Below, one piece after another: positions 18,336 to 32,809 of a stretch of 64,000 nt of DNA. The position numbers were made by a program, and so were the translations under genes. A model generated the notes under the pieces. That model searched no databases and was not told the DNA's origin. It saw nothing but the letters and a program-made list of their open reading frames with translations. The DNA lies in NCBI RefSeq assembly GCF_009469605.1, contig NZ_SSXU01000002.1, positions 300,807 through 364,806 on the forward strand. The letters run 5' to 3'. Source of the stretch: Zoogloea sp. 1C4. Lineage in GTDB: Bacteria > Pseudomonadota > Gammaproteobacteria > Burkholderiales > Rhodocyclaceae. Each line of letters starts with the position of its first letter. Positions within the stretch are counted from its first letter, which is position 1.

Positions 18336-18341
18336 GGTGGG

Positions 18342-18992: not shown

Positions 18993-19029
18993 GGTGGTGT
19001 CCTCGGATTAACGGGAACAGCACCGCCCG

Positions 19030-19050: not shown

Positions 19051-19068
19051 GGGGTGGAAGAAAAACGC

Positions 19069-19329
19069 TCAGTCCGGCTCGAATTGCCGGGTGTGCGGGT
19101 TGAAGTGAAGCGCCTCGTCCACCGCCGTGATCGGCGTGAAGCCGTCCAGGTAGATGTTGTTGAGGTACTGATCGCGGTAGGTCAGTGCCTGCCGTGCCTG
19201 TTCCTCGGTGAGGCCGTTGCTGATGAAGTACTCCAGCATCTCCTCGTCGGAGGACACTTCGTCGTTGGACAAACTTCCTTCAACGAGTGCCAGCAGCGAG
19301 GGTGAGAGCGCAGCCAGGATCGGGTCCAT
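19069..19329 (-). CDS. Small acidic ICE protein of unknown function
   Basis: An 86-aa acidic protein, mostly helical, with no recognisable domain. It follows the 135-aa gene after 16 bp and probably shares its transcript. GGAGG lies seven bases before the start. Confidence 0.65.
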   Translation of the reverse strand: MDPILAALSPSLLALVEGSLSNDEVSSDEEMLEYFISNGLTEEQARQALTYRDQYLNNIYLDGFTPITAVDEALHFNPHTRQFEPD

Positions 19330-19345
19330 GTTGGTTCCTCCTGGC

Positions 19346-19753
19346 TCAGGCCATCAGCGTCGCGGCGGGAGCCGTGACAGCCGTGGGTGTGCGCCGCCGT
19401 GCGTGGTAGGCGCGAACGCCTGCACGCCAGTCGGCGGACTGCTCCGGTGCGAGGTCCAGATAGGACAGCGGGCACGAGTAGTAGTACGGGTGCATGGACT
19501 CTTCCAACGGCTTGTAGCCCCACTGGTTGCCGCTGCGTTCCAGCAGATCGCAGCGGATGTAGCGCAAGGACTGGCCCGGCGCGAGATCACGATGCACACC
19601 TTCGACCTTGGCGGTCAGTTCGACCACTGACCACAGCACGTTGCCGCGCAATGCGTGAGCGATAACCTTCGCGCTGACGCGCTCGGTCTGCTGTGGTGCG
19701 ATCAGTTCCGCGATCAGTTCAGACCGCGATTGGGGAGAGAAATACCAGCCCAT
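19346..19753 (-). CDS. Conserved ICE protein (DUF6927-like)
   Basis: A 135-aa protein that begins MGWYF. A mixed alpha/beta region follows, with the conserved-looking blocks VLWSVVELT and YYYSCPLSYLDL. No catalytic residue can be assigned. It shares a transcript with the 86-aa gene downstream. The DUF name is from memory and uncertain. Confidence 0.68.
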   Translation of the reverse strand: MGWYFSPQSRSELIAELIAPQQTERVSAKVIAHALRGNVLWSVVELTAKVEGVHRDLAPGQSLRYIRCDLLERSGNQWGYKPLEESMHPYYYSCPLSYLDLAPEQSADWRAGVRAYHARRRTPTAVTAPAATLMA

Positions 19754-19779
19754 GAGAGGCCTCCTCGAAAAGTTGAGCT

Positions 19780-19814
19780 GGAGGCCTCCCCGTGGGGAAG
19801 AACCCCCAGTGGGT
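19780..19814 (-). promoter_or_regulatory. Leader element of the 135-aa gene
   Basis: The palindrome GGAGGCCTCC overlaps the short stem CCCC-GT-GGGG. The sequence continues into CCCAGTGGGTG, the shared leader sequence of this ICE. Confidence 0.45.
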
Positions 19815-19859
19815 GATGGAATGCCGCAGGTGCAGCGAAGGAAAACCTATGCCTTACCC

Positions 19860-20198
19860 TTAGTCCCAGTCGTCATCGTCGCGATCACAACCGGCCGGAC
19901 AGCAGCCGAACTCGATCCCATGCGAGCAATAGCCATGCTCCGCATTCCAGTCCTGGGTTTCCTGCCGTTCGGCCGGTGTTGCGTAGTCCCATTCCTGTGC
20001 GATCTTCAGCGCCTGTGCGCGCTGTTCTTCCGGCAATCGACCGAGTTGCGCGTCGATCGCCGAACTGAAGCGTTCGACGTAGTAGTCGTGAGACAGTCCG
20101 CAACCCTTGGTGGCTTGTGCGGCTGCCGTCTCGCAGAGAGCCCGCCACGCGGGTTCATCCAGCGCGGAGCGGGGGATATCGCAAGCGATGGTGGACAT
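19860..20198 (-). CDS. Small Cys- and Asp-rich ICE protein
   Basis: A 112-aa protein, helical at first. It has a C-terminal cluster of Cys and Asp: CSHGIEFGCCPAGCDRDDDD. The Cys pattern suggests metal binding, but the family is unnamed to me. ATG 20198 is preceded by GGAGG. The longer frame begins in a non-coding leader and was rejected. Confidence 0.68.
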   Translation of the reverse strand: MSTIACDIPRSALDEPAWRALCETAAAQATKGCGLSHDYYVERFSSAIDAQLGRLPEEQRAQALKIAQEWDYATPAERQETQDWNAEHGYCSHGIEFGCCPAGCDRDDDDWD

Positions 20199-20226
20199 GA
20201 TGAAGACCTCCAGAAGATGGCCAGGG

Positions 20227-20263
20227 CCTCCCCCGCATGGGGAAGGAACCCCGGCGGGTGGAT
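20227..20263 (-). promoter_or_regulatory. Leader element of the Cys/Asp-rich protein gene
   Basis: A CCCC-GCAT-GGGG stem is followed by GGAACCCCGGCGGGTGG (plus strand). This is one of the clearest copies of the shared pattern: a C4/G4 stem next to a CCCCGGNGGGTGG block. Confidence 0.55.
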
Positions 20264-20292
20264 GAAGAACACCGCGCATGCGGCGTCTACGA

Positions 20293-20982
20293 TCACGCAG
20301 GTTGCAGTTCGGCCTGGCGGCTCCACTCCTGCGTCTTGAAGTCCAGCGCGTAGCCCAGCTCGCCCAGGCGGGCGATCTGTGCACGCAAAGCGCGGCGGTC
20401 GATGGTCGAATCCAGTTTCACGGACTCGCCCAGCGGCCACAGCAGGCCGAAGAGCGCGGGGTCACCGTCTTGGGTGCTGCCGGGGGCAGCAGCCTCAGCA
20501 GGTGGCGGCGCATCCACGCCAAAGGGCGTGGTATCGACCATCGGGTCCGCGGACGCCTGCACGGGTGCGGGCTTGGCGGGCCTGGACGCTTTGGTCGGCT
20601 TGGCCGGCGTTGTCGCAGGCTGCGCCCCTTGCTCTTCATCGAGCGGATCGACGTCCTGGGTGGCGAAGCTGCGGGCTTCGTCGCGGCTGAGTTTGTCGAT
20701 GCCGTTGAGCGTCATGCCGTCGAGGCTGGCACGGATCTCGAACCGCATGCCGCCGCCGACCGGATAGGACTTCGGGAAGATGTACCTGATGATGAATTCC
20801 CCGTCGTACTTGCCTTCGGGGTACTGCTCCAGCTCCGGGTCTTTGACCTCGAAAGTACCGAGGTGCGTGGCGAGGCGGCCAACCGTGAACGGGCCGTTCT
20901 TGCCGCGGATGGTACGCAGCGTGAGCTGGCCGGGGACGACGATGGGCGCAACCGATTTCTCGGAAGCCGATGGGGTTGCCAT
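20293..20982 (-). CDS. DUF3275-family ICE protein
   Basis: A 229-aa protein. The conserved N-terminal domain (about residues 12-115) is beta-rich and has the block RTIRGKNGPFTVGRL. A long Ala/Pro/Lys linker and a C-terminal helical piece that ends QEWSRQAELQPA follow. The family is confined to ICEs of this class; its function is unknown. It probably follows the DUF932 gene in expression. Confidence 0.82.
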   Translation of the reverse strand: MATPSASEKSVAPIVVPGQLTLRTIRGKNGPFTVGRLATHLGTFEVKDPELEQYPEGKYDGEFIIRYIFPKSYPVGGGMRFEIRASLDGMTLNGIDKLSRDEARSFATQDVDPLDEEQGAQPATTPAKPTKASRPAKPAPVQASADPMVDTTPFGVDAPPPAEAAAPGSTQDGDPALFGLLWPLGESVKLDSTIDRRALRAQIARLGELGYALDFKTQEWSRQAELQPA

Positions 20983-21076
20983 GATGGTTCTCCTGATGAT
21001 GAATGACGGGCCGCCGACGGCACCCGGTGGATGAGAGGAAATGGCCTCGCCCGAGGTGGGCGAGGTCCGCGTGGCA

Positions 21077-21904
21077 TCACGCCTTGAGCTGGCGCATGCC
21101 TTCGGCCAGCAGCCACAACGCCCGGTTCAGGCGCAGGTTCTGGTCGATGCCTTGCACCGGACGGGTGCGCTGATTGCGGCCGTTGGCCGTGCGTCCGTTC
21201 AGGCCCCCTTTGACGAGGTTCTCCTGGACGCGGTTGAAGACGGCCCACAAGTCGTTCTTGCGGTCGTCCCATCGCCGGGGTGCCAGCAGTTGGCTCTCCG
21301 TGACAGGCGTGGACTTGGCTGGATCGTCGTACTTGAGTGCGAGCGCGGAGTTTGCAAAGACCTCCGCTTCGCCCTCATCGAGGGTGATGGTGCGCATCGC
21401 ATCGCGCGCGTTCTGCACGCGCTCGAAGCCTTCGAGGACTCCGTAGGCACCTTCGATCACCTGGCTGGCCACGTCGCCCTTGTGGGGAACGCGGATGTCG
21501 GCGGTGGTGTCACCGCAAACCAGGCCGTTGTGGCAGACGAACCGGAACATGCCGGCGAGCATCTGATAGCTGCTCGTGCCGTCGTGGCTGTTGAGCAGGA
21601 TGATCTCGTTCGCCTCGTCGCCGTTGATCTGGCTCGCATGGCGAAGTCGGATGAGGTGCTTCGTGTACTCGCGCCGGTCTTCGTTGCGCACGCGTGTCTG
21701 GCACACCATGAAGGGCTCGAAGCCCTCCTGGCGCAGCTTGGTCAGCACGGTCGAGGTCGGTATGTAGGCATACCGATCGGACCGGCTCCCATGCGGAGCG
21801 TCGGCGAAGATCGACGGAACGACGGCACGAATGCGGTCGTCCGAGAGTGGACGATCGGAGCGCAGGATCGGGGATTGCGGAGCAAAACGGGATGCCAGAG
21901 ACAT
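21077..21904 (-). CDS. DUF932-family ICE protein
   Basis: A 275-aa protein with the DUF932 fold seen in many phages and mobile elements. It shows the typical blocks TKHLIRLRH, EIILLNSHDGTSSYQM and FRFVCHNGLVCGD in order between residues 85 and 145. The biochemical role is unknown, possibly in replication or DNA exchange. ATG 21904 has AAGGAGA nine bases before it; the longer frame was rejected. Confidence 0.88.
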   Translation of the reverse strand: MSLASRFAPQSPILRSDRPLSDDRIRAVVPSIFADAPHGSRSDRYAYIPTSTVLTKLRQEGFEPFMVCQTRVRNEDRREYTKHLIRLRHASQINGDEANEIILLNSHDGTSSYQMLAGMFRFVCHNGLVCGDTTADIRVPHKGDVASQVIEGAYGVLEGFERVQNARDAMRTITLDEGEAEVFANSALALKYDDPAKSTPVTESQLLAPRRWDDRKNDLWAVFNRVQENLVKGGLNGRTANGRNQRTRPVQGIDQNLRLNRALWLLAEGMRQLKA

Positions 21905-22024
21905 GGCTGATCTCCTTTGAGAAATGCGGTAACCGCGCGGCGGTGAGACCACGCGGAACTCGGGGGATGAAATGCGCAAGCGCGCGTCATGGGGACGCGG
22001 CGGATGCGGGAAGAGAAGCGACAA

Positions 22025-22040
22025 GGCCCCGTGAGGGGCC
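22025..22040 (-). terminator. Terminator-like hairpin after the STY4534-family gene
   Basis: GGCCCC and GGGGCC form a 6-bp stem with a 4-base loop, 8 bp past the stop. The following minus-strand sequence, TTGTCGCTTCTCTT, is only moderately T-rich, so termination may be partial. Confidence 0.5.
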
Positions 22041-22048
22041 ATGCCGTA

Positions 22049-22954
22049 TCAGAACGAAGCAGCCAATGCCGGCTCCTGCTCCTCGACTTGCGCCTCGGGC
22101 TCGCGCTCGGCGGGCTCGGTGGCCGTGTCGATGGCGTCGTCGGCTTCGGACGCGGATGCGTCTTCGGCCGGCGGCGCCTCGGGTTGCGCCTGGCTCGTCG
22201 GATAGACCTGGGTGCCGTCGATCTTGATCAGACCGATGTGGACCAGCGTCGATTCCAGGCTTGCGGCCGGTTCCCCGGCGTGCTCGCCCTTGGTGCGGAT
22301 GTACGGATCGATCTTCATGTCGTTCAGACGGAAGGCGATCAGCACCTTGCGGTCACCCTCGATGGCCTGAACGCACCGGCGAACCAGATGCTCGGCTTCC
22401 GGGGTGGCGACGATGGTGTCGAAGTACCGATACTCCGGTTCATCGACAGGCCCGGCCAGTGCTGCGACGGTGCAAGAGAGGAACGAGTCGCCAGCCTTTG
22501 GGGTGACGTCCTTCACACGATTGAGATAGCCGATGCCGCGGGTGATCAGCTCGTGCTGCTCGATCGAAGCCAGTTCGGCCCGGTCGATCAGTTCGGCCTT
22601 GAGCAGTCGCGCCTTGAGGGACGCGGCGGCCTGACCCTTCTGCTCACCCTTGTCGCGGATGTACGCATCGCCCCACAGGTCACCGAGGCGAAATCGCACC
22701 AGCGGGCGCTGCTTGGGATCGTCAACGCCGATGTAGCGCTGAACGAGCTTCTTGGCCTCGGCACCCGAGACCTTGACGTCGAAGTAGCGGTAGCTGGGGT
22801 CCCGGGCGGGGCCGACCAGCGCGGCGATGGTGCAAGCAAGGAAAGGCTGCGCACGGCGGCCGCCCCGGACGGGCACTTCACGGACACGCTGGACGTAGCC
22901 GATGCCCGAGGTGTGGAGGTCGAAATACGATTTCTCGTTGGACGTGGTGTTCAT
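22049..22954 (-). CDS. STY4534-family ICE replication protein with two DUF3577 domains
   Basis: A 301-aa protein built from two copies of the same about 110-residue domain. Copy 1 runs from GIGYVQRVREV (about residue 18) and copy 2 from GIGYLNRVKDV (about 141). Each has a YRYFD block and a C-terminal IR-KGE motif (AYIRDKGEQ, PYIRTKGEH). The tail is acidic. Members are linked to ICE replication and may bind single-stranded DNA (inference from the SSB-like strand pattern). Most relatives I recall are shorter, so the duplication is notable. Confidence 0.82.
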   Translation of the reverse strand: MNTTSNEKSYFDLHTSGIGYVQRVREVPVRGGRRAQPFLACTIAALVGPARDPSYRYFDVKVSGAEAKKLVQRYIGVDDPKQRPLVRFRLGDLWGDAYIRDKGEQKGQAAASLKARLLKAELIDRAELASIEQHELITRGIGYLNRVKDVTPKAGDSFLSCTVAALAGPVDEPEYRYFDTIVATPEAEHLVRRCVQAIEGDRKVLIAFRLNDMKIDPYIRTKGEHAGEPAASLESTLVHIGLIKIDGTQVYPTSQAQPEAPPAEDASASEADDAIDTATEPAEREPEAQVEEQEPALAASF

Positions 22955-22986
22955 GGTGAATCTCCATTGGGATGAAGCGGAGACAC

Positions 22987-23032
22987 ACCGGCCCACGCAT
23001 GCGGGGAAGGTGCGTAACCCCGCGGTGGGTTG
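22987..23032 (-). promoter_or_regulatory. Proximal leader element of the STY4534-family gene
   Basis: GCGGGG (23001-23006) and CCCCGC (23018-23023) can pair. The block GCGGTGGGTTG follows on the plus strand. It lies between the distal two-hairpin element at 23106-23191 and the start codon. Confidence 0.5.
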
Positions 23033-23105
23033 ATAAGGCGAAAGCATCCGCCACCAGAGGCTGGTGGCCGCTCGCGGATGGATGCGGTGCGAGCTGGCTC
23101 GGTCA

Positions 23106-23191
23106 CGCAGTGGGAACTGCGCCGCAACCTCGAAGACCGATGGTTGCCTGGCATGTCGCTGACAACGTCAGCAGGCATGGGGTCAGCATGG
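23106..23191 (-). repeat. Two-hairpin leader element, copy 1
   Basis: On the plus strand stem H1 is CGCAG/CTGCG (23106-23121). Then comes CAACCTCGAAG, TGCCTGGCATG, and stem H2 GCTGAC/GTCAGC (23158-23172). The same order is found at 25277, 28284 and 29183 with different but complementary stem bases. It lies upstream of the STY4534-family gene and would sit at the front of that transcript. Confidence 0.65.
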
Positions 23192-23719
23192 CCGGGCCTC
23201 GCGCGCGCGGCAGCAATCAATCGGCATCCGGGTGCTTCCCTTTGTCCGCGCCGCCCGGCGCCTGCCACAGGCATTTGGGGCGGCGCAGGTGCTCGGGGTA
23301 TCGGCGAGGGGGCGGCTGGGACGGCTCCAGGCGCCGCCGCCGCGCGCGCCAATCAGCCGCCAGCCGGCGGCGCGCGGGCTGGCGCCGCCTTCGTCGGGTA
23401 AGGTGTAGGTGATCAGGCGGATGTAGCCCAGCGACTTTGCCGCCTGCCAGGCCGCGCCGTATAGCTTGCTGCAGGCGTTGGGTGTGCTGTCGGTGCACAG
23501 CCGTGTGACTTCCCGCGTCCAGCCATCGTCCAGGTGCCGCGCGACCGGCCGGCCGACGATGGCCACGCCGCGGATCAGGTCGCTGTCGACCAGCGTGACG
23601 GCCAGGGCGAACTTCGCAGCCTGGACCGGACGGTGATGGTGTGCCAGCACGAAGACGTTGGCCGTGCGCAGCGACACCGGCAGCAGGTGCAGCCTCGGCG
23701 AGGTCGATGATGTGTTCAT
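23183..23719 (-). CDS. XF1762-family ICE protein, probable frameshift near the 3' end
   Basis: A 178-aa frame. Residues 1-130 match the XF1762 family, with GRPVARHLDDGWTREVTRLC and YGAAWQAAKSLGYIRLITYT; the pattern resembles an acetyltransferase (GNAT) core. After WSRPSRP the reading frame turns into Ala/Arg-rich sequence. One added C in the run of five C on the minus strand near 23310 would restore the family-like tail RRYPEHLRRPKCLWQA and move the stop to 23217. Either a real -1 change or a sequencing error is possible. Activity, if any, is unknown. Confidence 0.72.
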   Translation of the reverse strand: MNTSSTSPRLHLLPVSLRTANVFVLAHHHRPVQAAKFALAVTLVDSDLIRGVAIVGRPVARHLDDGWTREVTRLCTDSTPNACSKLYGAAWQAAKSLGYIRLITYTLPDEGGASPRAAGWRLIGARGGGAWSRPSRPLADTPSTCAAPNACGRRRAARTKGSTRMPIDCCRAREARPC

Positions 23720-23814
23720 GCGGTCGTCTCCGGTGGCATGCCGGCGCTGTGGCCCGCGGGGCGTGCCTTGGCGGCTGGAGACGAACGCGCATGCGCGGCG
23801 ATGGCCGCGGTGCG

Positions 23815-23843
23815 AACAAAAGAAAGCCCCCGGTGCGGGGGCT
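23815..23843 (-). terminator. Rho-independent terminator after the DUF3085 gene
   Basis: On the minus strand AGCCCCC and GGGGGCT (7-bp arms, 5-base loop) lead into TTTCTTTTG. It lies 27 bp beyond the DUF3085 stop. Confidence 0.88.
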
Positions 23844-23869
23844 GCGAGGGCTGCGCGGCGGTTGCCGCT

Positions 23870-24223
23870 TCAGGCGGGAGGCACCACGGCCAAGGACAGG
23901 TGCGTGGCGGTGGCGGACAGCACGAGATCGTCCGCCGAGTGCAGGAGGCGCGTGAACAGGCCGTCCTTCGGGTCGAAATACTCCGCAAAATCGTCGCCAC
24001 CCAGCTCGCGGCCGGCGAGGTGCCACCAGTCATCGAACGGGTCGGTGTCCGGGTTGCAGCCGACGGCGTAGGCGAGCAGTTGCTGGCGTCCATCCGGGCG
24101 ACGCTCCCCACGCTCGGCGAGGAAGTACACGCCCTGGTCCTTGACCAGGACGATGCGGCACTGATTGGCGATGGCTTCGGTCAGCACGGGGCGCAGGTCG
24201 GCGCCTTTGAATCGCAGTGACAT
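23870..24223 (-). CDS. DUF3085-family ICE protein
   Basis: A 117-aa protein with the family blocks CRIVLVKDQGVYFLAERGER and CNPDTDPFDDWWHL, and the C-terminal LHSADDLVLSATATHL. It is soluble and mixed alpha/beta; its function is unknown. The gene is a unit of its own, with a terminator after it and a terminator-like hairpin 32 bases before its ATG. Its expression is therefore likely controlled by leader attenuation. ATG 24223 (AGGAG nine bases upstream) is preferred over an in-frame start inside that hairpin. Confidence 0.87.
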   Translation of the reverse strand: MSLRFKGADLRPVLTEAIANQCRIVLVKDQGVYFLAERGERRPDGRQQLLAYAVGCNPDTDPFDDWWHLAGRELGGDDFAEYFDPKDGLFTRLLHSADDLVLSATATHLSLAVVPPA

Positions 24224-24241
24224 GGATGAAATCTCCTGTGT

Positions 24242-24284
24242 TAAAAAAAGAGAAAGGCCCTCCACCCGATGGGATGAAGGGCCT
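24242..24284 (-). promoter_or_regulatory. Attenuator-like hairpin in the DUF3085 leader
   Basis: On the minus strand AGGCCCT and AGGGCCT (7-bp arms, 16-base loop) are followed by TTCTCTTTTTTT. The ribosome site AGGAG begins six bases later. A terminator this close before a start codon suggests conditional read-through. I recall a published candidate RNA called the DUF3085 motif; whether this is the same cannot be checked here. Confidence 0.65.
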
Positions 24285-24347
24285 GTAGGTCACGCGGCCG
24301 GAATGGCTGGAACGCCGTGGCGGGTGCCTCGGGTCAGCCGAGGGGCG

Positions 24348-25172
24348 TCATGCCGGGACGGCTTGGCGCTTACGGGCCGCCTTCGCGTCGAGGATGCTCA
24401 CGTCGATCTGGCGCCAGCGCCCGTCGTCGATGAGCCGCTCCAGCACTTCGCCGAGCATGTCGAAATACACCTCGTCGTGCCGATCGACCAGTTCGACCGA
24501 TTCACCGTTCTGACGGTGCAGTTCCACCACGTAGGTGTCTCCGCCGCGGTCGTAGAGGATCGTCACCCGGCCCTCGAACTTCGCGGTCGAGACCGTGAAG
24601 CTGATCGCCGGCGGGGTCTCGATGATCTTGGAGGGCGTGGGATCGACCCAGGTGAAGTCGCGGGCACCGGCATCCACCAGCATGTGGGTGATGCGCCGGA
24701 AGCGATCGGGGGCCGGCATCTCTTCCAACTGCTCGATGAGCTGGCCCAACTCCATGCACTGCGGCGTGGGAATGGGCAGCTTGGCCGGCGCCGAGCCGAG
24801 GATGTGCCTCGTGATGGTGTACGGCGTGCCGTCCGAAGTCTTCTCGGTGATGACCTCCGGCGTGTCCGCGCGCAGTCCGTCGAAGCGACGACGGGCATAG
24901 GGTTGGACATGCACCTTGGCGCCTTCGGCAGGAACCGTGGTCACCAGGCTGGGATCGAGCACCGCGAACTCGGAAGGCTTGAGCTTGACGACGATGGCAT
25001 CGTCGGTCGCAGCGACCACCTTGCCGTCGAAGGGTTGGGGGTCGATGGCAAAGCCCAGCGTTGAGGACAGCGGCTGATCATCGAACACGCGGTACTTGAA
25101 CGATCGCACGTTACGGGGCACATGGCCTGCGACCAGCGAAGGCATCATGGATTTGATGAGGGAACGGTCCAT
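24348..25172 (-). CDS. Conserved ICE protein of unknown function (274 aa)
   Basis: A 274-aa soluble protein, beta-rich in its first half and mixed in the second. Similar ICE genes are sometimes labelled GTPase, but I see no P-loop or other nucleotide-binding motif, so I do not repeat that name. ATG 25172 has AAGGAG eight bases upstream. The frame continues up through the leader, but that part has no protein-like character. Two leader elements precede it (25195 and 25277). Confidence 0.72.
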   Translation of the reverse strand: MDRSLIKSMMPSLVAGHVPRNVRSFKYRVFDDQPLSSTLGFAIDPQPFDGKVVAATDDAIVVKLKPSEFAVLDPSLVTTVPAEGAKVHVQPYARRRFDGLRADTPEVITEKTSDGTPYTITRHILGSAPAKLPIPTPQCMELGQLIEQLEEMPAPDRFRRITHMLVDAGARDFTWVDPTPSKIIETPPAISFTVSTAKFEGRVTILYDRGGDTYVVELHRQNGESVELVDRHDEVYFDMLGEVLERLIDDGRWRQIDVSILDAKAARKRQAVPA

Positions 25173-25194
25173 GGGGAAACTCCTTGAGAAATAA

Positions 25195-25230
25195 CAAGGG
25201 ATTCCCCGCCCGCAAGGGAGAGGTCCCTTG
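25195..25230 (-). promoter_or_regulatory. Proximal leader hairpin of the 274-aa gene
   Basis: CAAGGGA (25195-25201) and TCCCTTG (25224-25230) form a perfect 7-bp stem around a G/C-rich loop. It is followed on the plus strand by TGGGTGG, the shared flank of these leaders. Confidence 0.55.
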
Positions 25231-25276
25231 TGGGTGGCGTGGATGGACGCGGTAGGTCCGTAGGAAGAAACGACCA

Positions 25277-25361
25277 GCACGGTTTCCCGTGCTTGCAGCC
25301 TCGAAGGTCTCGACTGCCTGGGCATGTGTCGGCAGCGCCGACGGACATGGGGTAAGCATGG
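25277..25361 (-). repeat. Two-hairpin leader element, copy 2
   Basis: H1 is GCACGG/CCGTGC (25277-25292). Then comes GCAGCCTCGAAG, TGCCTGGGCATG and H2 GTCGGC/GCCGAC (25328-25342). It ends in CATGGGGTAAGCATGG, nearly the same as copy 1. It lies upstream of the 274-aa gene. Confidence 0.65.
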
Positions 25362-25430
25362 CCCCGGGGTGGTCGGCCTGCCCGCAGGAAACGGCACCGC
25401 AACATGCCCGCATTCCTGTGCTGCGTACAA

Positions 25431-25452
25431 GAAAAAGCCCCTCGAAAGGGGC
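25431..25452 (-). terminator. Rho-independent terminator after the 92-aa gene
   Basis: On the minus strand GCCCCT-TTCG-AGGGGC is followed by TTTTTC. It lies 9 bp after the stop at 25461. Confidence 0.9.
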
Positions 25453-25460
25453 CGGAGGGG

Positions 25461-25739
25461 TCAGGCTTGGTACACGAAGTAGTGCTCGCGCTGACGCGGA
25501 AAGAACACGTGCTTCCACGTGTCCCCGCTTGTGTTGCCACCGTCGAAGATGACCATTTCGTAGTCGTCCACGTCGGTGTCCATCAGGTCGGCGCTGGCGA
25601 TATGGCGCATGTGCAGCATGCCGCTCATGCGCTCGACTACCAGGATCTGGCCGATGGCATCGTCCTGGCTCATGGCATTGAAGCAGGCTCCAAGCTGGTG
25701 CTCGAAGTCCGATACGGGCGAGATGAGATCGGGGAACAT
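25461..25739 (-). CDS. Small acidic ICE protein of unknown function (92 aa)
   Basis: A 92-aa acidic protein with a mixed fold and no recognisable motif. It is a single-gene unit with its own strong leader hairpin and a terminator directly after it. This bounded layout supports a real gene. AGGAG lies nine bases before ATG 25739. Confidence 0.7.
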   Translation of the reverse strand: MFPDLISPVSDFEHQLGACFNAMSQDDAIGQILVVERMSGMLHMRHIASADLMDTDVDDYEMVIFDGGNTSGDTWKHVFFPRQREHYFVYQA

Positions 25740-25762
25740 GGGATCGCTCCTATGAAAGTGAA

Positions 25763-25794
25763 CCGGCCCGGCTCCCTGGCGGGAGACGGGCCGG
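25763..25794 (-). promoter_or_regulatory. Strong leader hairpin of the 92-aa gene
   Basis: CCGGCCCG-G-CTCCC pairs with GGGAG-A-CGGGCCGG: a 13-bp stem with a single mismatch and a four-base loop, 23 nt before the start codon. No T-run follows, so it is not a simple terminator. Confidence 0.65.
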
Positions 25795-25835
25795 CATGCG
25801 GTGAGGAAAAGGTAGGCTGGGGATGTGTCTGGCAG

Positions 25836-26567
25836 TTATTCGCCGGCCAACGGCAGGCCCGGCAACACGGGTGCGTCGGCATCGAGAATGAGGATGCGCA
25901 CATCGGCCTGGCCGGCCAGTGCAAGGATCTGTGCCAGGTCGTCCGGCATGCCCTTGCTGCAGTGCTCCTGCCGAAGCTGCTCGGCGGAGATCTCCTCGAC
26001 GTCCTGCAGGTGCTGGCCCGTCCAGGGCGTGGAAATCAGCTTGACGCCGATCGCCGGGCTGTAGGGAACCCGGAACGCAATGAACAAAAAGGCTTCCGGC
26101 GTCGCGAGGTCAGCCAGGTTGGCCAGGTACTGGCCGGTTTCGTGGCTGATGTGCGCGCTGCTGATTTCCCAGCACCGGCTGTAGTAGCCGGTCTCGAAGC
26201 TCAACCGCTGCACGACTTCCCGTGCGGCCTCGGCCGAATAAGTGTCGCCAATGTGGACGGGGAGGCCGTCGAAGTCGTCGCCGTGGATCGCGTACACCAC
26301 GGCACCCACCACGCCGTAGGCGCCTTCACCGGCATCGCGTTCGGCCAGCACCTCGGCACTCACGGAGTCTGGGCCATTGCTGACTACGGCGAAATCGCTG
26401 GTGACGATGCAGGATGCTGAAACCAGCTCCTCATCGGAGAGGTGTTCTTGGCTCTGGTGGATGTTTCGCCAGACATGCGGGCTTCCGTCCTCGTGGCTGA
26501 TGGACAGCGTGCGGACGATTTTCAGATTCCAGTAGCCGCGTAGAAAGGGATTGGGATTCTGGGACAT
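25836..26567 (-). CDS. Conserved ICE protein of unknown function (243 aa)
   Basis: A 243-aa soluble protein, alpha/beta, acidic, with no motif that I can assign. A middle region (AYGVVGAVVYAIHGDDFDGL) and a C-terminal helical region are evident. The upstream extension of the frame overlaps the next gene and is rejected. GGAG lies nine bases before ATG 26567. Confidence 0.7.
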   Translation of the reverse strand: MSQNPNPFLRGYWNLKIVRTLSISHEDGSPHVWRNIHQSQEHLSDEELVSASCIVTSDFAVVSNGPDSVSAEVLAERDAGEGAYGVVGAVVYAIHGDDFDGLPVHIGDTYSAEAAREVVQRLSFETGYYSRCWEISSAHISHETGQYLANLADLATPEAFLFIAFRVPYSPAIGVKLISTPWTGQHLQDVEEISAEQLRQEHCSKGMPDDLAQILALAGQADVRILILDADAPVLPGLPLAGE

Positions 26568-26606
26568 GGGATTTCTCCAACAGAATAATGATGGAGCCAA
26601 TCCCCG

Positions 26607-26629
26607 CCACCGGGAATTGACCCCGGTGG
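26607..26629 (-). promoter_or_regulatory. Leader hairpin of the 243-aa gene
   Basis: CCACCGGG (26607-26614) and CCCGGTGG (26622-26629) form a perfect 8-bp stem with a 7-base loop. GGTGGGTGG follows on the plus strand. Confidence 0.6.
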
Positions 26630-26650
26630 GTGGAAAGAAAGGAAACAGCG

Positions 26651-27337
26651 TCAGGTGACGCTGATCGTTGGCGTTTGGGCCAATCGCTCGGCGACGCGTC
26701 GGCGCAAATTCATGCGGAATGGCTCGTCGCTGACGCCCGCCAGCAGATTGATGGTCTCCAGCGCAATCAGGGCCGAGGCCTCTTCGATGTCGGCGGCCAC
26801 AATGGCCTTGCGCAGTTGGTCGCCGAGCTGGAGGGCCTGCGAGGAGGAACTGATGACGCGGACCTCGCGGCTCAGGTAGCAGCCGTTGCCGCCGAACTCG
26901 AACAGCCGCGGCTTGCTGCAATACCAGCATCCCTCGAACTGGATGGCGGTCAGGTGGTGGCCGTCATCGAATCGGGTGGCGATCAGAAACAATGCGTCGA
27001 GATCGGCGGTGTCCTCGAACGAATGACGCTCGATCAAGTTCCCCAGCTCTTCGTCCTCATCGGCACCGAAGTGCACGGCGAGCAGTTCGAGCAGCGGCGG
27101 GATCGAAAGCCCTTCGTCGTCCGGCATCGGAATGCCGAGTTGCGTGGCCAGGTCTTCCAGGCCATCGAGCACGTCCGGCCATTGCGGATTGGTGGTCTCG
27201 GCGATCTGGGCGATGTAGGCCTGCCCGTTGCCGGGATGGCTCTCGTCCAGCGCGAAGGCGCCGAACAGCGCCTGGATGACGGGCGTCACACGGTCGAGCA
27301 CGAGAACGCCGGTGGCTTCGTAGTAATTGTTGGCCAT
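26651..27337 (-). CDS. Conserved ICE protein of unknown function (228 aa)
   Basis: A 228-aa soluble protein. An acidic helical N-terminal half is followed by a Cys-containing strand region (GCWYCSKPRLFEFGG) and a helical C-terminus. The CxxC may be structural. ATG 27337 has AAGGAG seven bases upstream. It lies among single-gene units with hairpin leaders. Confidence 0.7.
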   Translation of the reverse strand: MANNYYEATGVLVLDRVTPVIQALFGAFALDESHPGNGQAYIAQIAETTNPQWPDVLDGLEDLATQLGIPMPDDEGLSIPPLLELLAVHFGADEDEELGNLIERHSFEDTADLDALFLIATRFDDGHHLTAIQFEGCWYCSKPRLFEFGGNGCYLSREVRVISSSSQALQLGDQLRKAIVAADIEEASALIALETINLLAGVSDEPFRMNLRRRVAERLAQTPTISVT

Positions 27338-27517
27338 GAAGGCTCCTTTCGATGAATGAACGGAGCCAGCCCTTGCGGACGATGGCATCCGCAGGGGAAC
27401 CGCCTGATGCCGGATGGCACTGGGCGGGGAGAAACGCGAGGGACATGGCCTCGGGCGAGGCGCATGTCCCTCATGGGGTCGCGTGAACGCAGTGATGAAG
27501 GTGTGCCGGGGACCGGC

Positions 27518-27910
27518 TCACCAACCGCTGTAGTTCAGCAGGAGGTCGGCGATCACCTGGCGACGAGGCAGATCGAGGCCGTCGAAGTCCGACAACCCGT
27601 TGAAGTGGCAGCGCTTGAGCATGGCACCGCCCTCGCGCGCGTTGTAGAAGCTGACCATCGCGGACAGGAACATGCGTTCCCCGCTGCTCAGGACGCCGAG
27701 GGCGTCGTTGAGGCGCAGCATGTCGGGGCGCAGATCCCACTTGCTCTTGGCCTGGTTCAGACCTTCACGGGTGCCATCGCCAAACCATTGCGGGCCGGCG
27801 ATCTCGACACCACGCTTCCATGCCTCGAAAAAGGCTTGGGGCGCGGCGCTGAAATGCCGTTCTTCCCGAACGATCTGATCGACGACTTCCTGCGGCAGTA
27901 GCTGGTTCAT
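27518..27910 (-). CDS. Conserved ICE protein of unknown function (130 aa)
   Basis: A 130-aa mostly helical protein with the block VLSSGERMFLSAMVSFYNAREGG, which looks conserved. No catalytic motif is seen. The gene begins 21 bp after the 73-aa gene and probably shares its transcript. GGAGG lies 8 bases before the start. Confidence 0.7.
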   Translation of the reverse strand: MNQLLPQEVVDQIVREERHFSAAPQAFFEAWKRGVEIAGPQWFGDGTREGLNQAKSKWDLRPDMLRLNDALGVLSSGERMFLSAMVSFYNAREGGAMLKRCHFNGLSDFDGLDLPRRQVIADLLLNYSGW

Positions 27911-27931
27911 GACGTGATTCCTCCAGTTGGA

Positions 27932-28153
27932 TCAGGGAACGGCGAGCTGGGACCAGCCGCCTCTTTCGAGGGCACGTTGAGCCGCGGCATGGCTGCGGAA
28001 GTACTCACGAGATTCCCGCGAAACGGGACCTTCGGTATCGCGCGTGCCGATGTAGTGGCCGGCGGCGCTGTGCAGGACTTCGAGCGGCAGGAACTTGCCG
28101 CAGTAGGTCAAGGCCAATTGACCGAATCGGCCGAAAGAGGCTTGCTGGGACAT
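27932..28153 (-). CDS. Small ICE protein of unknown function (73 aa)
   Basis: A 73-aa protein with a short strand region and a helical, Arg-rich C-terminus. AAGGAG lies nine bases before ATG 28153. It probably heads a two-gene unit with the 130-aa protein, behind a long structured leader. Confidence 0.65.
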   Translation of the reverse strand: MSQQASFGRFGQLALTYCGKFLPLEVLHSAAGHYIGTRDTEGPVSRESREYFRSHAAAQRALERGGWSQLAVP

Positions 28154-28283
28154 GGATGGGCTCCTTGGAAAAGCGGGGCCCTGTCCCTCACGGGATGGCA
28201 GCTCCCGCACGCGGTTGAAAAAAAGCATCAGCGTCTTGGCGACGCGCGTCCGCGCAATGGATGCGATGCGGACTGGTGGGTTG

Positions 28284-28353
28284 CGCGGGGAGAACCCCGC
28301 GGCAGCCTGAAACCCTGGCTGCTGGCATGTGCTGACGAATCAGCGAGCATGCG
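28284..28353 (-). repeat. Two-hairpin leader element, copy 3
   Basis: H1 is CGCGGGG/CCCCGCG (28284-28301). Then comes GCAGCCTGAAA, TGCTGGCATG and H2 GCTGA/TCAGC (28331-28344). It lies upstream of the 73-aa gene. The stretch from GGTGGGTTGCG to CTGCTGG is nearly shared with copy 4. Confidence 0.65.
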
Positions 28354-28430
28354 GGCAGCTTCGTGGGGGGGGCGCGCCACGTCAGTTGGAAATCGGCATC
28401 TGGTCCAGCCCCGATTGATGTACGCAGAGA

Positions 28431-28460
28431 CAAAGAAAAGCCCCGCAGCAAGTGCGGGGC
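28431..28460 (-). terminator. Rho-independent terminator after the 185-aa gene
   Basis: On the minus strand GCCCCGCA and TGCGGGGC (8-bp arms, 5-base loop) are followed by TTTTCTTTG. It lies 26 bp past the stop. Confidence 0.9.
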
Positions 28461-28486
28461 GGTCATGACGGTGCGGTGAGGCTGGA

Positions 28487-29044
28487 TCAGCGGGGCTTGT
28501 CGCCCAGGACATGCTGCTTCCAGATGGCGAATGCCTCGTCCGCTGGCAGCTCGGCCAGGATGACGATGGGCTGGTCCTGTCGGCTGCGCAGCTTTGCGAA
28601 ATACGCTGCGCGGTCGGCAATGGCCTTGAGCTTGATGCCCTTGAGGAACAGCAGCCTGCCGTCCTTGATGAACAGCACCTTGTTGCCGATGTCGCGGTTG
28701 AACGCGGTGCGCAGCTTGCGCTCCGCGTGCATGGCATCGGCCAATTGGTCCACTAGGAAGTCGAGCGTCATGTCGATGAGAAGCGGCTCGTCGTCTTCGC
28801 GTTCGACGTCGAGCGATGCCGGCGGCAGGCTCTTGGCGAATTCCTCGGCCTGGGCCAGCAGCGCGGCCTGGCCTTGCAACGCGCGCACGAACGTCGAGCC
28901 GCCGTGTCCGTCGTTGCGGGCTTCGGCGATGGGCCTGCCGTCGAACATGACGGTGGCGGTGAAGCACAGCGTTTCCTCGCTCGCGAAATCCGCGACCTTG
29001 AGGTTCTTGAGGGTGATGCGGTCTTGTCGGGTGATGGTGTCCAT
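28487..29044 (-). CDS. Conserved ICE protein of unknown function (185 aa)
   Basis: A 185-aa soluble protein with an N-terminal beta-rich half and a helical second half that includes ADAMHAERKLRTAFNRDIGN. No motif points to an activity. It is a single-gene unit with a long leader and its own terminator. AGGA lies about nine bases before ATG 29044; the longer frame is rejected because it runs through the structured leader. Confidence 0.7.
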   Translation of the reverse strand: MDTITRQDRITLKNLKVADFASEETLCFTATVMFDGRPIAEARNDGHGGSTFVRALQGQAALLAQAEEFAKSLPPASLDVEREDDEPLLIDMTLDFLVDQLADAMHAERKLRTAFNRDIGNKVLFIKDGRLLFLKGIKLKAIADRAAYFAKLRSRQDQPIVILAELPADEAFAIWKQHVLGDKPR

Positions 29045-29062
29045 GGGAAGTCCTGATATCGA

Positions 29063-29112
29063 CCGGGTTGACGACACGCCCCTGACGGGACGCGGCATAC
29101 ATCCCGTGGGTT
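29063..29112 (-). promoter_or_regulatory. Proximal leader element of the 185-aa gene
   Basis: ACGGGA (29085-29090) and TCCCGT (29102-29107) can pair, and the plus-strand flank is GTGGGTTGG. This is the proximal part of the two-part leader. Confidence 0.45.
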
Positions 29113-29182
29113 GGAGGAAGGTGGCATCGATGCCCGGTGGGCAGCGTTCGCCGGAGAGATGCCGGGGCGAACTGGCGGGTGG

Positions 29183-29251
29183 CGTGGGCGGAACCCACGG
29201 CAGTCTGGACACCCTGGCTGCTGGCTGTTGCCGATGCGTCGGCAATGCAGG
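29183..29251 (-). repeat. Two-hairpin leader element, copy 4
   Basis: H1 is CGTGGG/CCCACG (29183-29199). Then comes GCAGTCTGGACACC, TGGCTGCTGG and H2 TTGCCGA/TCGGCAA (29228-29245). It lies upstream of the 185-aa gene. Confidence 0.6.
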
Positions 29252-29344
29252 AGGGAGGATCGCGCGACCCGCCGGCCGCGTCTTGCATCAATCCGAAGCG
29301 ATCGATCCCGTCTTGTGCAGGTACTGCACCAGCCGGCGTCCCCA

Positions 29345-29429
29345 GCCACGCGACGCACAGCACGGCCATGGAATTGCCGATCGCCTTGCAGTTCGGTGCA
29401 TCGGCGGTGCGTAGTGAGGCGGATTGCAA
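29345..29429 (-). pseudogene. Possible remnant of a C5-cytosine DNA methyltransferase C-terminus
   Basis: In one minus-strand frame the sequence reads KAIGNSMAV followed by a Trp-Leu-Gly, as in the last conserved motif of phage-type C5 methylases (typically KALGNSMAV...W.G). Nothing upstream shows the catalytic motifs, and the frame continues downstream without the usual end. I read it as a deletion scar; a chance match is possible. Confidence 0.3.
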
Positions 29430-29510
29430 TGTTGGCGGTCATGTGGGTCTCCCGTTCGTGTGGCGCAGGGCCATCGCCCTGGCCGGGGCGTTGAAAGGCA
29501 GGAGAAAGGC

Positions 29511-29535
29511 GCCGAAGGCCCCAGGGGCCTTCGGC
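29511..29535 (-). terminator. 11-bp inverted repeat, terminator- or attenuator-like
   Basis: GCCGAAGGCCC and GGGCCTTCGGC form perfect 11-bp arms with a three-base loop. The minus-strand flank GCGCCTTTCTCC has only a weak T-run, so it may be a leader hairpin instead. Confidence 0.5.
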
Positions 29536-29720
29536 TCGGGAGGAAAGAAGAACCACCCGTGGGCTGATTGGCAGGCCCGGTCGTCGCTAGAACCGTCTGC
29601 TCATCCAGCAATCACACCCGGCCCATGTCGTGGCTGGGGCCGGCATCGTCTGGCGCACATCCGCGCACAAAGGGAGCCCGTTTTTGCGCCGGCGGGCACC
29701 GGCACCGAATACCGCTGACC

Positions 29721-29772
29721 GCGAAGGGTCTCCGGATGGCTCGCACAGGCAAGCCATCGGGGGACCCTTCGC
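29721..29772. repeat. 52-bp imperfect hairpin upstream of topB's end
   Basis: GCGAAGGGTC/GACCCTTCGC outer arms (10 bp) and GATGGCT/AGCCATC inner arms (7 bp) are separated by short mismatches. The loop is about 10 bases. It has no T-run; the role is unknown. Confidence 0.55.
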
Positions 29773-29973
29773 AGCGGCGGAAGGAATGCAGACGAGGAGA
29801 ACGCGCGGGGTGCGGTTCGCGGAGAAGCCACCTTCAGGTCCCGCGGCCGGGGCCGGCCGGACGGGACGCGCACACGGAGCAAGAAGGCGTTGCGCGCTGG
29901 GGCGTCCCGCAGGGCATGCGGGACACGGGCCACGCCGCCGATGGCGGGCATGGCTCACGGGGAACGGGGGCGG

Positions 29974-32007
29974 TCAGGCGCCTTTGCGGCCACCGCCACT
30001 GGTACGGCGTGGACGCGAGGCACCACGCCTGGACGTGCCGGTTGCCACCGGCAGCGTGCCTTTGCAGTCGGGGTAGCGACTGCACGACCAGAACGGGCCG
30101 CTCTTGCCGGTTCGCTGGCGCGTGGGTGCGCCGCACTGCGGACAAGCCGGTCCTTGGGGAACCTTGATGGACAGGGACGTGCTGCCGTATTGCGCGATCA
30201 ACTGCGAAATCCAGGCGGCCTGCTTGCCGATGAACACATCCAGGGTGAGTTGTCCGCCCTCGATCATGTCCAGCGCCTGTTCCCAGACGGCGGTGGTGCC
30301 GGGGTCGGCAATCGCCGCGGGCACGGCGTCGATCAGCGTGAACGCCGCATCCGATGCGCGGATGGAGCGCCCCTTCTTCACGATATAGCCGCGGGCGATC
30401 AGCCCGCTGATGATGTTGGCCCGCGTCGCCTCGGTGCCGATGCCCGTCGTGTCCTTGAGCTTCTGCTTCAGGCGCGGGTCGGTCACGAAACGCGCAACGC
30501 CCTTCATCGCCTTGACCAGTTCGCCCTGGGTATAGGGCTTGGGCGGCATCGTCTTGAGGGCCTTGATGTCGGCCCCGGCGACCTGGCATGCCATCCCGTC
30601 ACGCAGCGCAGGCAGCACCTGGGTGCGCACGGGGGCGTCGCCATCCTCATCGGCGCTGCCTTCACGTTCGGACTCGGCCAGCACCAGGCGCCAGCCGCGG
30701 GCGACGACCTGCTTGCCCGTAGCCACCAGCTTCTGCTGGCCGCAGGAGAGATCCGCCACGGTGCGGTCGAACTCGTGGTGCGGGAGGAACTGGGCCAGGT
30801 AATGTGCCCGGATCAGCCGGTACAACGCCCGTTCCTTCTCGCTCATGGCGGAGAGATTCGCGGGTTCGAGCGTCGGGATGATGCCGTGGTGCGCCGTCAC
30901 CTTGCCGTCGTTCCAGGCGCGCGAGCGCTGGGTGCGGTCGAGCTGGCCCATGATCTGGGCCAGCGTGGGATCGGTCTTGAGCAGGCTGTCCAGGACCGTG
31001 GGCACTTCGGCGAACATGCTTTCGGGCAGGTAGCCCGAATCCGAGCGCGGGTACGTCGTGGCCTTGTGCGTCTCGTACAGGGCCTGGGCGATCTCCAAGG
31101 TTTCCTGCACGTCCAGCCCAAGCTGCTTGGAACAGACTTCCTGCAAGGTGCCCAGGTCGAACAGCAGCGGCGGGCCTTCGCGCACGCGCTCGGTCTCGAC
31201 CGACACCACCTGGGCACTGCCCGCGGCGCGGATCTGCTGCGCGGCCTGCTGTGCGACGGGCTGCCGCAGGCAGCGGCCGGCGTCGTCGGTGCTGGCATCG
31301 GGTGCCACCCACTGCGCGGTGAACGTCTGACCGCCTGCGGACAGCGACACGTCGATGGCCCAGTACGGCACGGACACGAAGGCCGCGATCTCTCGGTCGC
31401 GGTCCACCACGAGTTTGAGCGTCGGGGTCTGTACACGCCCGACCGACAGCACGCCATCGTAGCCGGCCTGCCGCCCGAGCACGGTGAACAGCCGGCTGAG
31501 GTTCATGCCCACGAGCCAGTCGGCGCGCGAGCGCGCCAGCGCCGAGTAATACATCGGCAGCGTCTCGGCCGAGGGCCGCAGCTTGGCGAGCGCGGTGCGG
31601 ATGGACGCATCGTTGAGCGCCGACAGCCACAGGCGTTCGATGGGACCGCGGTAGCCGCACAGGTCGATGATCTCGCGTGCGATCAGTTCGCCTTCGCGGT
31701 CGGCGTCAGTGGCGATGACAAGCTGGGTCGCCTTCGCCAGAAGCGCTTTGACGACCTTGAATTGCGTGGCGGTCTTCGGCTTGACCTCGACCCGCCACTG
31801 CTGGGGAATGATGGGCAGCTGTTCCAGCGACCAGCGCTTGAGCGCCGCGTCATAGACCTCGGGTGCTGCCGCTTCGACGAGATGGCCGATGCACCAGGTG
31901 ACCGTGACACCGGAGGCGTTGAGGCAGCCTTCACCGCGCTGCGTGGCGCCGAGAATCCGGCCGATGTCTTTGCCCTGGGAGGGCTTCTCGCACAGAAACA
32001 GCCGCAT
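29974..32007 (-). CDS. topB: ICE-type DNA topoisomerase III
   Basis: A 677-aa type IA topoisomerase that probably separates intermediates of ICE replication or transfer. The Toprim domain begins MRLFLCEKPSQGKDI and has the metal-binding DADRE at residues 101-105. The catalytic Tyr is Y319 in TTYPRSDSGY. Fold residues of the gate continue to about 600. A C-terminal C4 zinc ribbon (CPQCG...CSRYPDC) and a basic tail end the protein. It is well conserved in this ICE class. Confidence 0.95.
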   Translation of the reverse strand: MRLFLCEKPSQGKDIGRILGATQRGEGCLNASGVTVTWCIGHLVEAAAPEVYDAALKRWSLEQLPIIPQQWRVEVKPKTATQFKVVKALLAKATQLVIATDADREGELIAREIIDLCGYRGPIERLWLSALNDASIRTALAKLRPSAETLPMYYSALARSRADWLVGMNLSRLFTVLGRQAGYDGVLSVGRVQTPTLKLVVDRDREIAAFVSVPYWAIDVSLSAGGQTFTAQWVAPDASTDDAGRCLRQPVAQQAAQQIRAAGSAQVVSVETERVREGPPLLFDLGTLQEVCSKQLGLDVQETLEIAQALYETHKATTYPRSDSGYLPESMFAEVPTVLDSLLKTDPTLAQIMGQLDRTQRSRAWNDGKVTAHHGIIPTLEPANLSAMSEKERALYRLIRAHYLAQFLPHHEFDRTVADLSCGQQKLVATGKQVVARGWRLVLAESEREGSADEDGDAPVRTQVLPALRDGMACQVAGADIKALKTMPPKPYTQGELVKAMKGVARFVTDPRLKQKLKDTTGIGTEATRANIISGLIARGYIVKKGRSIRASDAAFTLIDAVPAAIADPGTTAVWEQALDMIEGGQLTLDVFIGKQAAWISQLIAQYGSTSLSIKVPQGPACPQCGAPTRQRTGKSGPFWSCSRYPDCKGTLPVATGTSRRGASRPRRTSGGGRKGA

Positions 32008-32283
32008 GTCCGTCCATCCGCTTCCCGTTGTTCATGGAGTTGCTGGGATCGAGGATGCCGAGCGCCTGTTGGGGCAGCAGCAAACAAGCTGCATGCGGCA
32101 GCGACCGCTTTCACGCCGATGGAACGGCTTGGGCGGGATGGCGTGCGGCCGGCGGTGTGCGAGCCGGGAGCCGCGATGTTCGGGAGCGCGCGGAAGCCGG
32201 TGGACGCTGATGGAGCTATCCCCTGGGGATAGCTCGCGAGGACATGGGGGGCGGCAACGTACTGCGGCCGCCCCCACGCCGGA

Positions 32284-32736
32284 TCACTTCCTGCGCTTGG
32301 GCTCCTTCGACGCTGCCGGTTCCTGGGCGGCCTGGGGCTTGGGCTGCGCGTCCTGTGCGGTCTCCTGCGATTTGGGGCTCAGAACGACGGACTCGATGCG
32401 GAACGGCAGGATGCCGACGCTGCGCGCGTTGATCTGCCAGGTCTCGCGCGGCTGATCCTCGTTGTCGGTCCAGGGTTCGCGCTCCATGCGGCCGACGACC
32501 AGCACGCGCATGCCCTTCTGGTAAAGGTCCTTCCAGTGTGCGGCGTCGCGGTGCCAGATTTCCACCGGCGCCCAGAAGCCGCCGCGGTCCTCGAAGTCAC
32601 CGCCCTTGGTGGGAACGGGGTTGTCGAAATACACGTTCAGCCGCAACAAGCGCCGCGGTTCGTCGTTGCCGTTGGGGAACTCCCGGTACTCGGGGGGCGA
32701 GCCGATGTTGCCTTCGCCCGAAAAATGCGTGCTCAT
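32284..32736 (-). CDS. ssb: ICE-encoded single-stranded DNA-binding protein
   Basis: A 150-aa protein with an OB-fold core at about residues 8-115, with the strand block MRVLVVGRMEREPW. The charged Gln/Pro/Lys-rich tail ends KEPKRRK and lacks the acidic DDDIPF tip of chromosomal SSB. It probably coats ICE single strands during transfer or replication. In ICEclc an ssb follows inrR, and the order here is the same. Confidence 0.85.
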   Translation of the reverse strand: MSTHFSGEGNIGSPPEYREFPNGNDEPRRLLRLNVYFDNPVPTKGGDFEDRGGFWAPVEIWHRDAAHWKDLYQKGMRVLVVGRMEREPWTDNEDQPRETWQINARSVGILPFRIESVVLSPKSQETAQDAQPKPQAAQEPAASKEPKRRK

Positions 32737-32809
32737 GGTGCAATCTCCTTGGTGGTTGAAATACCCGTGCCATGTCGGCGTCGGGCGCGTGCTGGGGTGC
32801 CCGACGCGA

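Follow-up and report, generated by a model that had tools for sequence, protein, structure and literature searches.

The elements described here lie in a 64,000-nucleotide stretch of the Zoogloea sp. 1C4 genome (contig NZ_SSXU01000002.1, positions 300,807 to 364,806; hereafter the window), in an integrative and conjugative element (ICE) that we take to be of the PFGI-1/ICEclc class. Four elements of about 150 nt, each on the minus strand, stand as leaders of ICE genes that are likewise on the minus strand (Table 1). They are already a known family, Rfam RF01754, the "radC RNA": three of the four copies are routine members, and what we add is a divergent fourth copy, the fold, and an upstream promoter-like box. 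All four copies share helices P1/P1b, P2, and P3 and a pseudoknot (PK1), to which class I copies add helices P4 and P5 and a second pseudoknot (PK2). Our best guess, to which we give an even chance, is that the radC RNA is a sensor in ICE-gene leaders, controlled by a trans-acting factor or ligand, with outputs that vary by gene.

A preliminary description of this DNA, unaware of the Rfam family, had reported a two-hairpin element in four copies upstream of different ICE genes, read on the plus strand. All four copies and the stem arms quoted for them are present in the sequence, and the copies do precede several ICE genes, forming four leaders. Both hairpins are real, and the coordinates assigned to them span only the 5′ half of the element: H1 is P3 and H2 is P1b, each read on the complementary strand, and the conserved segment GCARYCT is one arm of an extra helix, P2. 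The plus-strand reading was wrong. With the Rfam covariance model, copies 1–3 match on the minus strand at 124.8, 106.5, and 94.5 bits, respectively, or 2.4–3.1 times the gathering score of 40 bits for RF01754 (Weinberg et al. 2010, PMC2864571). At paired positions read on the gene strand, we counted 68 G-U against 16 A-C wobbles (cells that are not independent of one another), an excess that favors the minus strand as the functional one, and all 112 matches found in 39 loci carrying a DUF3577 gene lie on the strand of that gene.

Copy 4 is the divergent member. The Rfam model reports nothing at 29.1–29.3 kb, not even with the threshold relaxed to E ≤ 1 across 14 kb, and this copy thus stays below the 40-bit gathering score. 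We built a second covariance model, R1, from 35 class I copies of this and other genomes, including window copies 1 and 3 and leaving out copy 4 and its two relatives. R1 recovers the other three copies and finds copy 4 at 61.4 bits (E 8.4e-12), with the best nonmember in the window at 17.1 bits. Two proteins that are 82% and 74% identical to the 185-aa product encoded after copy 4 sit after radC RNAs scoring 70.7 and 61.6 bits with the Rfam model. Because of the R1 score and the family members in front of homologues of its gene, we regard copy 4 as a divergent relative of the radC RNA. Its P1 is possible as CUG/CAG instead of CAUG/CAUG, and the remaining helices form via compensated pairs. 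Genome-wide, R1 gives nine copies and the Rfam model eight. Another radC RNA, before a radC gene, lies 769–917 bases to the left of the window. Three contigs (C64, C140, and C72) of genome G000 carry radC RNAs, which suggests that the genome holds two or three related ICEs.

Read from its 5′ end on the minus strand, the element opens with P1 (CAUG/CAUG) and P1b, followed by P2, whose loop is long, and P3; the next strand pairs back with the loop of P2 to form PK1 (CGGUC/GACCG, GACC/GGUC, GGGUU/AACCC, and GGGUG/CACCC in copies 1–4, respectively). The 3′ half occurs in two forms, a difference from RF01754, and we set the classes by this 3′ end: 100 of the 141 distinct sequences are class I, and the remaining 41 are class II. 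The latter include window copy 2, and all distinct copies before the genes for the 274-aa (27) and 218-aa (14) products belong to this class. In class I, the 3′ half holds P4 (GUUCGC/GCGAAC and compensated variants), P5, and PK2, in which the terminal GAUGC of the element pairs into the P4 loop GCAUC. Alignment with MAFFT displaced PK2 (about 20 of 65 copies paired at four of its five positions), and the count was redone by local search, which places five Watson–Crick pairs in 62 of the 65 copies (three of these being GCACC/GGUGC), versus 304 of 13000 shuffled loops. We note that P2 loops end in UUCRA, which we take to be the beginning of the T-loop consensus, in 21 of 35 copies; window copies 3 and 4 lack this ending, and the P2 loop of copy 1 is at 23141–23130 on the minus strand.

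PK1, P4, and PK2 are absent from the structure line that cmscan prints for RF01754. We do not claim them as unpublished because covariance models cannot hold pseudoknots and because the CaCoFold revision includes radC/RF01754 among the RNAs having covarying pairs absent from database structures (PMC7657543); these extra pairs may already include PK1, P4, and PK2. The STAXI motif is likewise pseudoknotted, is found near genes of DNA-handling proteins, and has been discussed as either RNA or single-stranded DNA (PMC2864571). Set beside the radC RNA by description only, it differs in that its pseudoknots are in tandem.

The fold is borne out by the alignment. In the 35-sequence class I alignment, 96.4% of 1454 pair cells can pair, versus 22–49% when the partners are slid by 1–3 columns, and two-sided changes occur at 21 of 42 pairs (shuffle mean 8.9; none of 500 shuffles as high). 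Covariation was then judged against a null of our own, in which substitutions are replayed on the tree. A test confined to the proposed pairs, in 65 class I copies, gives E < 0.05 for pairs in P1b, P2, PK1, P4, and P5. Extending it to every pair of columns leaves three significant pairs, in P5, P2, and P4, the next best being again in P5 (E 0.12), and none of the PK1 pairs is significant. The set of 83 aligned 5′ halves yields significant pairs in P1b, P2, and P3; there, the best single PK1 pair reaches E 0.075, and the PK1 helix sum passes (11 of 100000 random null helices). A mismatch control for PK1 is weak, with runs of at least four pairs in 117 of 142 of the copies' own loop–strand pairs versus 2346 of 4625 foreign ones; the claim for PK1 rests on the proposed-pair test, the helix-sum test, and the 35-copy alignment. 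The structured RNA of the preliminary description is thus supported, with covariation above the tree-based null; conserved secondary structure with covariation is likewise described for RF01754.

Upstream of the elements stands a 34-bp box, AA.gcGG.c.....ccg.TgCCGATT.CCgc.CG, found by expectation–maximization in 74 nonredundant sequences from four gene families, with copies before radC genes excluded. In all 74 sequences it starts 55–57 bp ahead of the motif, and its log-likelihood is 1282, versus 464–470 for three shuffled sets (10 starts each, versus 30 for the real set). Among distinct copies, a box of at least 10 bits at −54 to −58 precedes 100 of 103 in the four families versus 0 of 30 before radC genes, and a −10-like CAnnYT falls on the first positions of the motif in 94 of 103 versus 1 of 30. 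In the named loci, which partly overlap the training genomes, the numbers are 86 of 91 for the box and 83 of 91 for CAnnYT. Random controls gave CAnnYT at 136 of 3000 places and the box anywhere in 150 bp in 63 of 3000. A scan for sigma-70 promoters returned one site, with 1.1 expected. From this arrangement we would place the start of the RNA near P1 and regard positions 1–10 of the Rfam model as probable promoter DNA rather than RNA. Published ICEclc work describes a comparable arrangement, a 27-bp motif common to eight of nine BisDC-type transfer-competence promoters of that one ICE (PMC9286271). The 34-bp box may be the same motif. The box of copy 4 is uncertain because a plus-strand site at 11265, which has no radC RNA, scores higher (12.5 vs 11.8 bits). 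Boxes without a radC RNA also occur on the minus strand of the window at 34220, 13946, 7786, and 32111 (18.5, 17.3, 15.5, and 9.9 bits, respectively), for example before PFL_4669 and topB; perhaps these sites mark a wider ICE regulon.

Table 1. Positions in the window of the radC RNA copies, their promoter-like boxes, the genes after them, and terminator-like hairpins between operons
Feature	Position	Strand	Context	Evidence
radC RNA copy 1, class I	23189-23044	minus	upstream of DUF3577/STY4534 gene	RF01754 124.8 bits; P1, P1b, P2, PK1, P3, P4, PK2, P5 placed
radC RNA copy 2, class II (3′ half differs)	25359-25208	minus	upstream of 274-aa gene	RF01754 106.5 bits; 5′-half helices and PK1 placed
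radC RNA copy 3, class I, T run after	28361-28225	minus	upstream of 73-aa and 130-aa genes	RF01754 94.5 bits; helices and both pseudoknots placed
radC RNA copy 4, divergent class I	29261-29124	minus	upstream of 185-aa gene	model R1 61.4 bits, E 8.4e-12
Promoter-like box, copy 1	23244-23211	minus		position weight matrix 19.7 bits (shuffled-window maximum 8.8)
Promoter-like box, copy 2	25414-25381	minus		position weight matrix 28.8 bits
Promoter-like box, copy 3	28416-28383	minus		position weight matrix 26.4 bits
Weak promoter-like box, copy 4	29315-29282	minus		position weight matrix 11.8 bits, start −54
DUF3577/STY4534 family ICE replication protein gene	22954-22049	minus	after copy 1	Pfam PF12101 E 1.5e-93; NF040584 E 5.3e-78
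274-aa gene	25172-24348	minus	after copy 2	no family match
73-aa gene	28153-27932	minus	first after copy 3	no family match
130-aa gene	27910-27518	minus	second after copy 3	no family match
185-aa gene	29044-28487	minus	after copy 4	no family match
Terminator-like hairpin	25453-25436	minus	between 92-aa gene and copy 2	consensus scan
Terminator-like hairpin	28460-28440	minus	between 185-aa gene and copy 3	consensus scan

How such a leader might work can be outlined from the letters and their conservation. An activator-dependent promoter, made up of the box followed by CAnnYT and common to ICE operons, would start transcription at about P1, so that separate transcripts would each open with the radC RNA; in front of radC genes, the same RNA would lie inside an operon. 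With less confidence, we propose that the folded RNA would serve as the sensing portion of a leader and govern expression of the gene that follows, most likely as the binding site of a single protein, RNA, or ligand encoded by the ICE or its host. The outputs would be gene-specific, acting on translation via a Shine–Dalgarno hairpin in most leaders examined and possibly by attenuation in about half of the leaders of the 73/130-aa family, where a U run after the element resembles an intrinsic terminator. In this scheme, the box would set the timing of transcription, and the RNA would set how much of the message is used. A common 5′ half joined to 3′ parts that differ by gene resembles a sensor whose outputs can be exchanged.

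The Shine–Dalgarno sequence is predicted to be paired (P ≥ 0.7) in 31 of 32 nonredundant leaders of four gene families led by the radC RNA. Hairpins of this kind, closing right before the ATG and differing in their outer stems, are seen in the leaders of the minus-strand genes starting at 26567, 27337, 25172, and 22954. A TTTT within 8 nt after the element is present in 15 of 27 distinct copies of the 73/130-aa family, versus 1 of 34 for DUF3577 and 1 of 29 for RadC, and in 9 of 36 nonredundant class I copies. We rejected attenuation as a general mechanism, as TTTT is rare outside the 73/130-aa family, and kept an attenuator specific to that family as a possible output. An upstream open-frame test does not discriminate in G+C-rich DNA and was not used.

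Two published ICEclc studies offer transcripts with which these leaders can be compared. If the ICEclc open reading frame (ORF) names are taken as lower coordinates, which is our assumption, ORFs 87986, 85934, and 84835 lie 414, 2466, and 3565 from ORF 88400, and the window genes for the 130-aa, 92-aa, and 274-aa products lie 414, 2471, and 3584 from the 73-aa gene. ORF81655, by contrast, fails to fit DUF3577 (6745 vs 5883). This correspondence, drawn from coordinates in names, is only suggestive. Read coverage rises in stationary phase upstream of ORFs 81655, 88400, 84835, and 89247 (PMC9286271). A weak primer-extension end was placed about 250 nt before ORF81655, and 5′ rapid amplification of cDNA ends gave no specific product before ORFs 81655, 88400, and 89746 and three other ORFs (PMC2892462). 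The window leaders measure 187–235 nt from the 5′ end of the motif to the ATG.

Several observations weigh against the sensor proposal. A Shine–Dalgarno hairpin is also predicted for genes without a radC RNA (those for the 243-, 228-, 92-, and 130-aa products, DUF3085, and parA), the pairing is weaker for the copy 3 gene (P 0.60) and absent for the copy 4 gene (0.36), and the mean z of the hairpins is only −0.8 to −1.5. The U run is absent from 12 of the 27 copies of the 73/130-aa family. The median distance from the RNA to the chosen start codon is 31–94 nt in four families and 137 nt in a small one, and with this spread the RNA does not obviously act as a direct switch on the start site. None of the tree-null tests finds significant covariation in P1. 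In ICEclc, no reporter expression came from the fragments ahead of ORFs 73676, 84835, and 89247 despite the rise in coverage (PMC9286271).

A bolder form of the sensor proposal, which we think unlikely, is a two-layer ICE regulon with the radC RNA as its post-transcriptional layer. The activator box would fire the operons jointly, and one trans-acting factor or ligand, read by a common double-pseudoknot sensor in several leaders of a single ICE and also within the operon before radC, would set the output through gene-specific platforms: Shine–Dalgarno hairpins in most leaders and attenuation before the 73/130-aa genes. The preliminary description had likewise suggested that one shared trans factor could act on all four genes. 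If so, the proteins would be made only by cells committed to transfer or by new recipients.

The same 5′ position could serve a simpler purpose. A pseudoknotted 5′ end may shield stationary-phase messages from decay, or direct their processing, with no dedicated trans factor, and we give this reading a small chance. The start proposed at P1 fits it, as does the finding that the ICEclc transcripts of this region, by our own coordinate match, are among the most abundant core transcripts of that element (PMC2892462). The conserved loop letters and the pseudoknots, however, go beyond the needs of a stabilizing hairpin. In addition, the copies that precede radC genes have no box, and one of them is embedded among transfer genes.

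We hold it to be improbable, more so than stabilization, that the radC RNA acts by processive antitermination, altering RNA polymerase and thereby allowing read-through of the ICE operons. The element stands at operon starts with terminator-like hairpins between operons, it can also sit inside an operon, and a 14-kb operon has been reported in this region of ICEclc (PMC2892462). A consensus scan listed 12 terminator-like hairpins in the region, with 6.4 expected, and among those listed is the final hairpin of copy 3 with its T run (28225–28245; ending in GAUGC and a U run). Against antitermination, terminator-like hairpins are predicted after one gene for copy 4, five for copy 3 (with two more within that operon), and one for copy 2, the scan having covered the operon ends of copies 2–4.

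An element acting as DNA, either a cruciform protein site, as the preliminary description had also allowed, or an Frpo-type single-stranded-DNA promoter used on entry into the recipient, is very improbable to us: one downstream gene is named a replication protein and leading-region genes of conjugative elements can have single-stranded-DNA promoters (PMC11541004), but the 68:16 asymmetry favors one strand (although a folded single DNA strand could partly share it), the box and CAnnYT stand before the stems and not inside them, and the copies before radC genes keep the fold without either. In an Frpo-type promoter, −35 and −10 form inside the hairpin of the transferred strand, whichever strand that may be here. 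In plasmid pKF715A (L258, 2469–2619), the radC RNA shares 47 nt with the 3′ end of a thioredoxin-domain gene and is followed, in a run of transfer genes, by radC. This overlap, together with a fold kept without the box before radC, points to an RNA acting on the next gene and not to a cruciform or promoter element.

Listings of the radC RNA have given it no function since 2010, and the literature searched (supplements excluded) yielded no paper that addresses what it does. With the full fold, the placement of the box, and the distinction between box-linked copies and boxless copies before radC, a direct test of its function in a model ICE becomes feasible. The radC RNA may reveal how a single mobile element coordinates several of its operons once transcription has begun.

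RF01754 is described as a presumed 5′ leader of DNA-associated genes, radC included. Our survey agrees, with RadC after 33 and STY4534/DUF3577 after 38 of 160 copies; the other assigned genes encode the 73/130-aa (34), 274-aa (29), and 218-aa (16) products and a few others. The RadC assignment was confirmed for one member by Pfam PF04002. These 160 copies come from 34 genomes and leave out listed places in G001, G007, G017, and G188, one in G058, and three subthreshold matches (G032, G303, and G351). At E ≤ 0.001, with the Zoogloea genome itself counted each time and the number above the Rfam cutoff in brackets, radC RNAs occur in 7 of 23 (7) genomes of the genus, 27 of 199 (26) of a family sample, 10 of 300 (8) of the order, and 2 of 369 (2) of the class, with 1 to 14 matches per positive genome in the family sample. 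We also examined named DUF3577 loci, taking the best 80 of 414 and running R1 on 39 of the 80. A radC RNA stands directly before DUF3577 in 39 of these 39, which by title are beta- and gammaproteobacteria, one Gluconacetobacter, and one Proteobacteria metagenome-assembled genome (MAG); a locus titled Phycisphaerae MAG (L197) is outside the 39. Proteobacterial hosts, leader position, and association with radC genes, all features of RF01754, thus recur in this genome and its relatives.

A 149-nt query matched six plasmid records and one "phage" record. The latter (MT835540.1, L257, "Bacteriophage sp.") carries two radC RNAs and looks like an ICE that was probably mislabeled, because pilus-type ATPase genes and STY4534 are present.

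Among the other window ICE genes, profile matches identify PFL_4669, PFL_4695, ICE ParB, STY4528, topB, and SSB. T4 gp32 is the model for an SSB that binds its own pseudoknot leader. We considered the DUF3577 protein as such an SSB-like binder and dropped the idea, as a profile search of solved structures gave a best E of 1.1 and a profile comparison with the SSB of the ICE (hhalign) gave a probability of 1.0 on a scale of 0–100. A 265-aa relative of the 274-aa product, encoded on the plus strand at 3244–4038 of locus L170, has a subthreshold match to KfrB (Pfam E 0.001, 19.5 bits, cutoff 25). Finally, a large plasmid of Tistrella mobilis (NC_017958.1, 63581–88298) covers 90% of window positions 18000–34000 at 91.3% identity.

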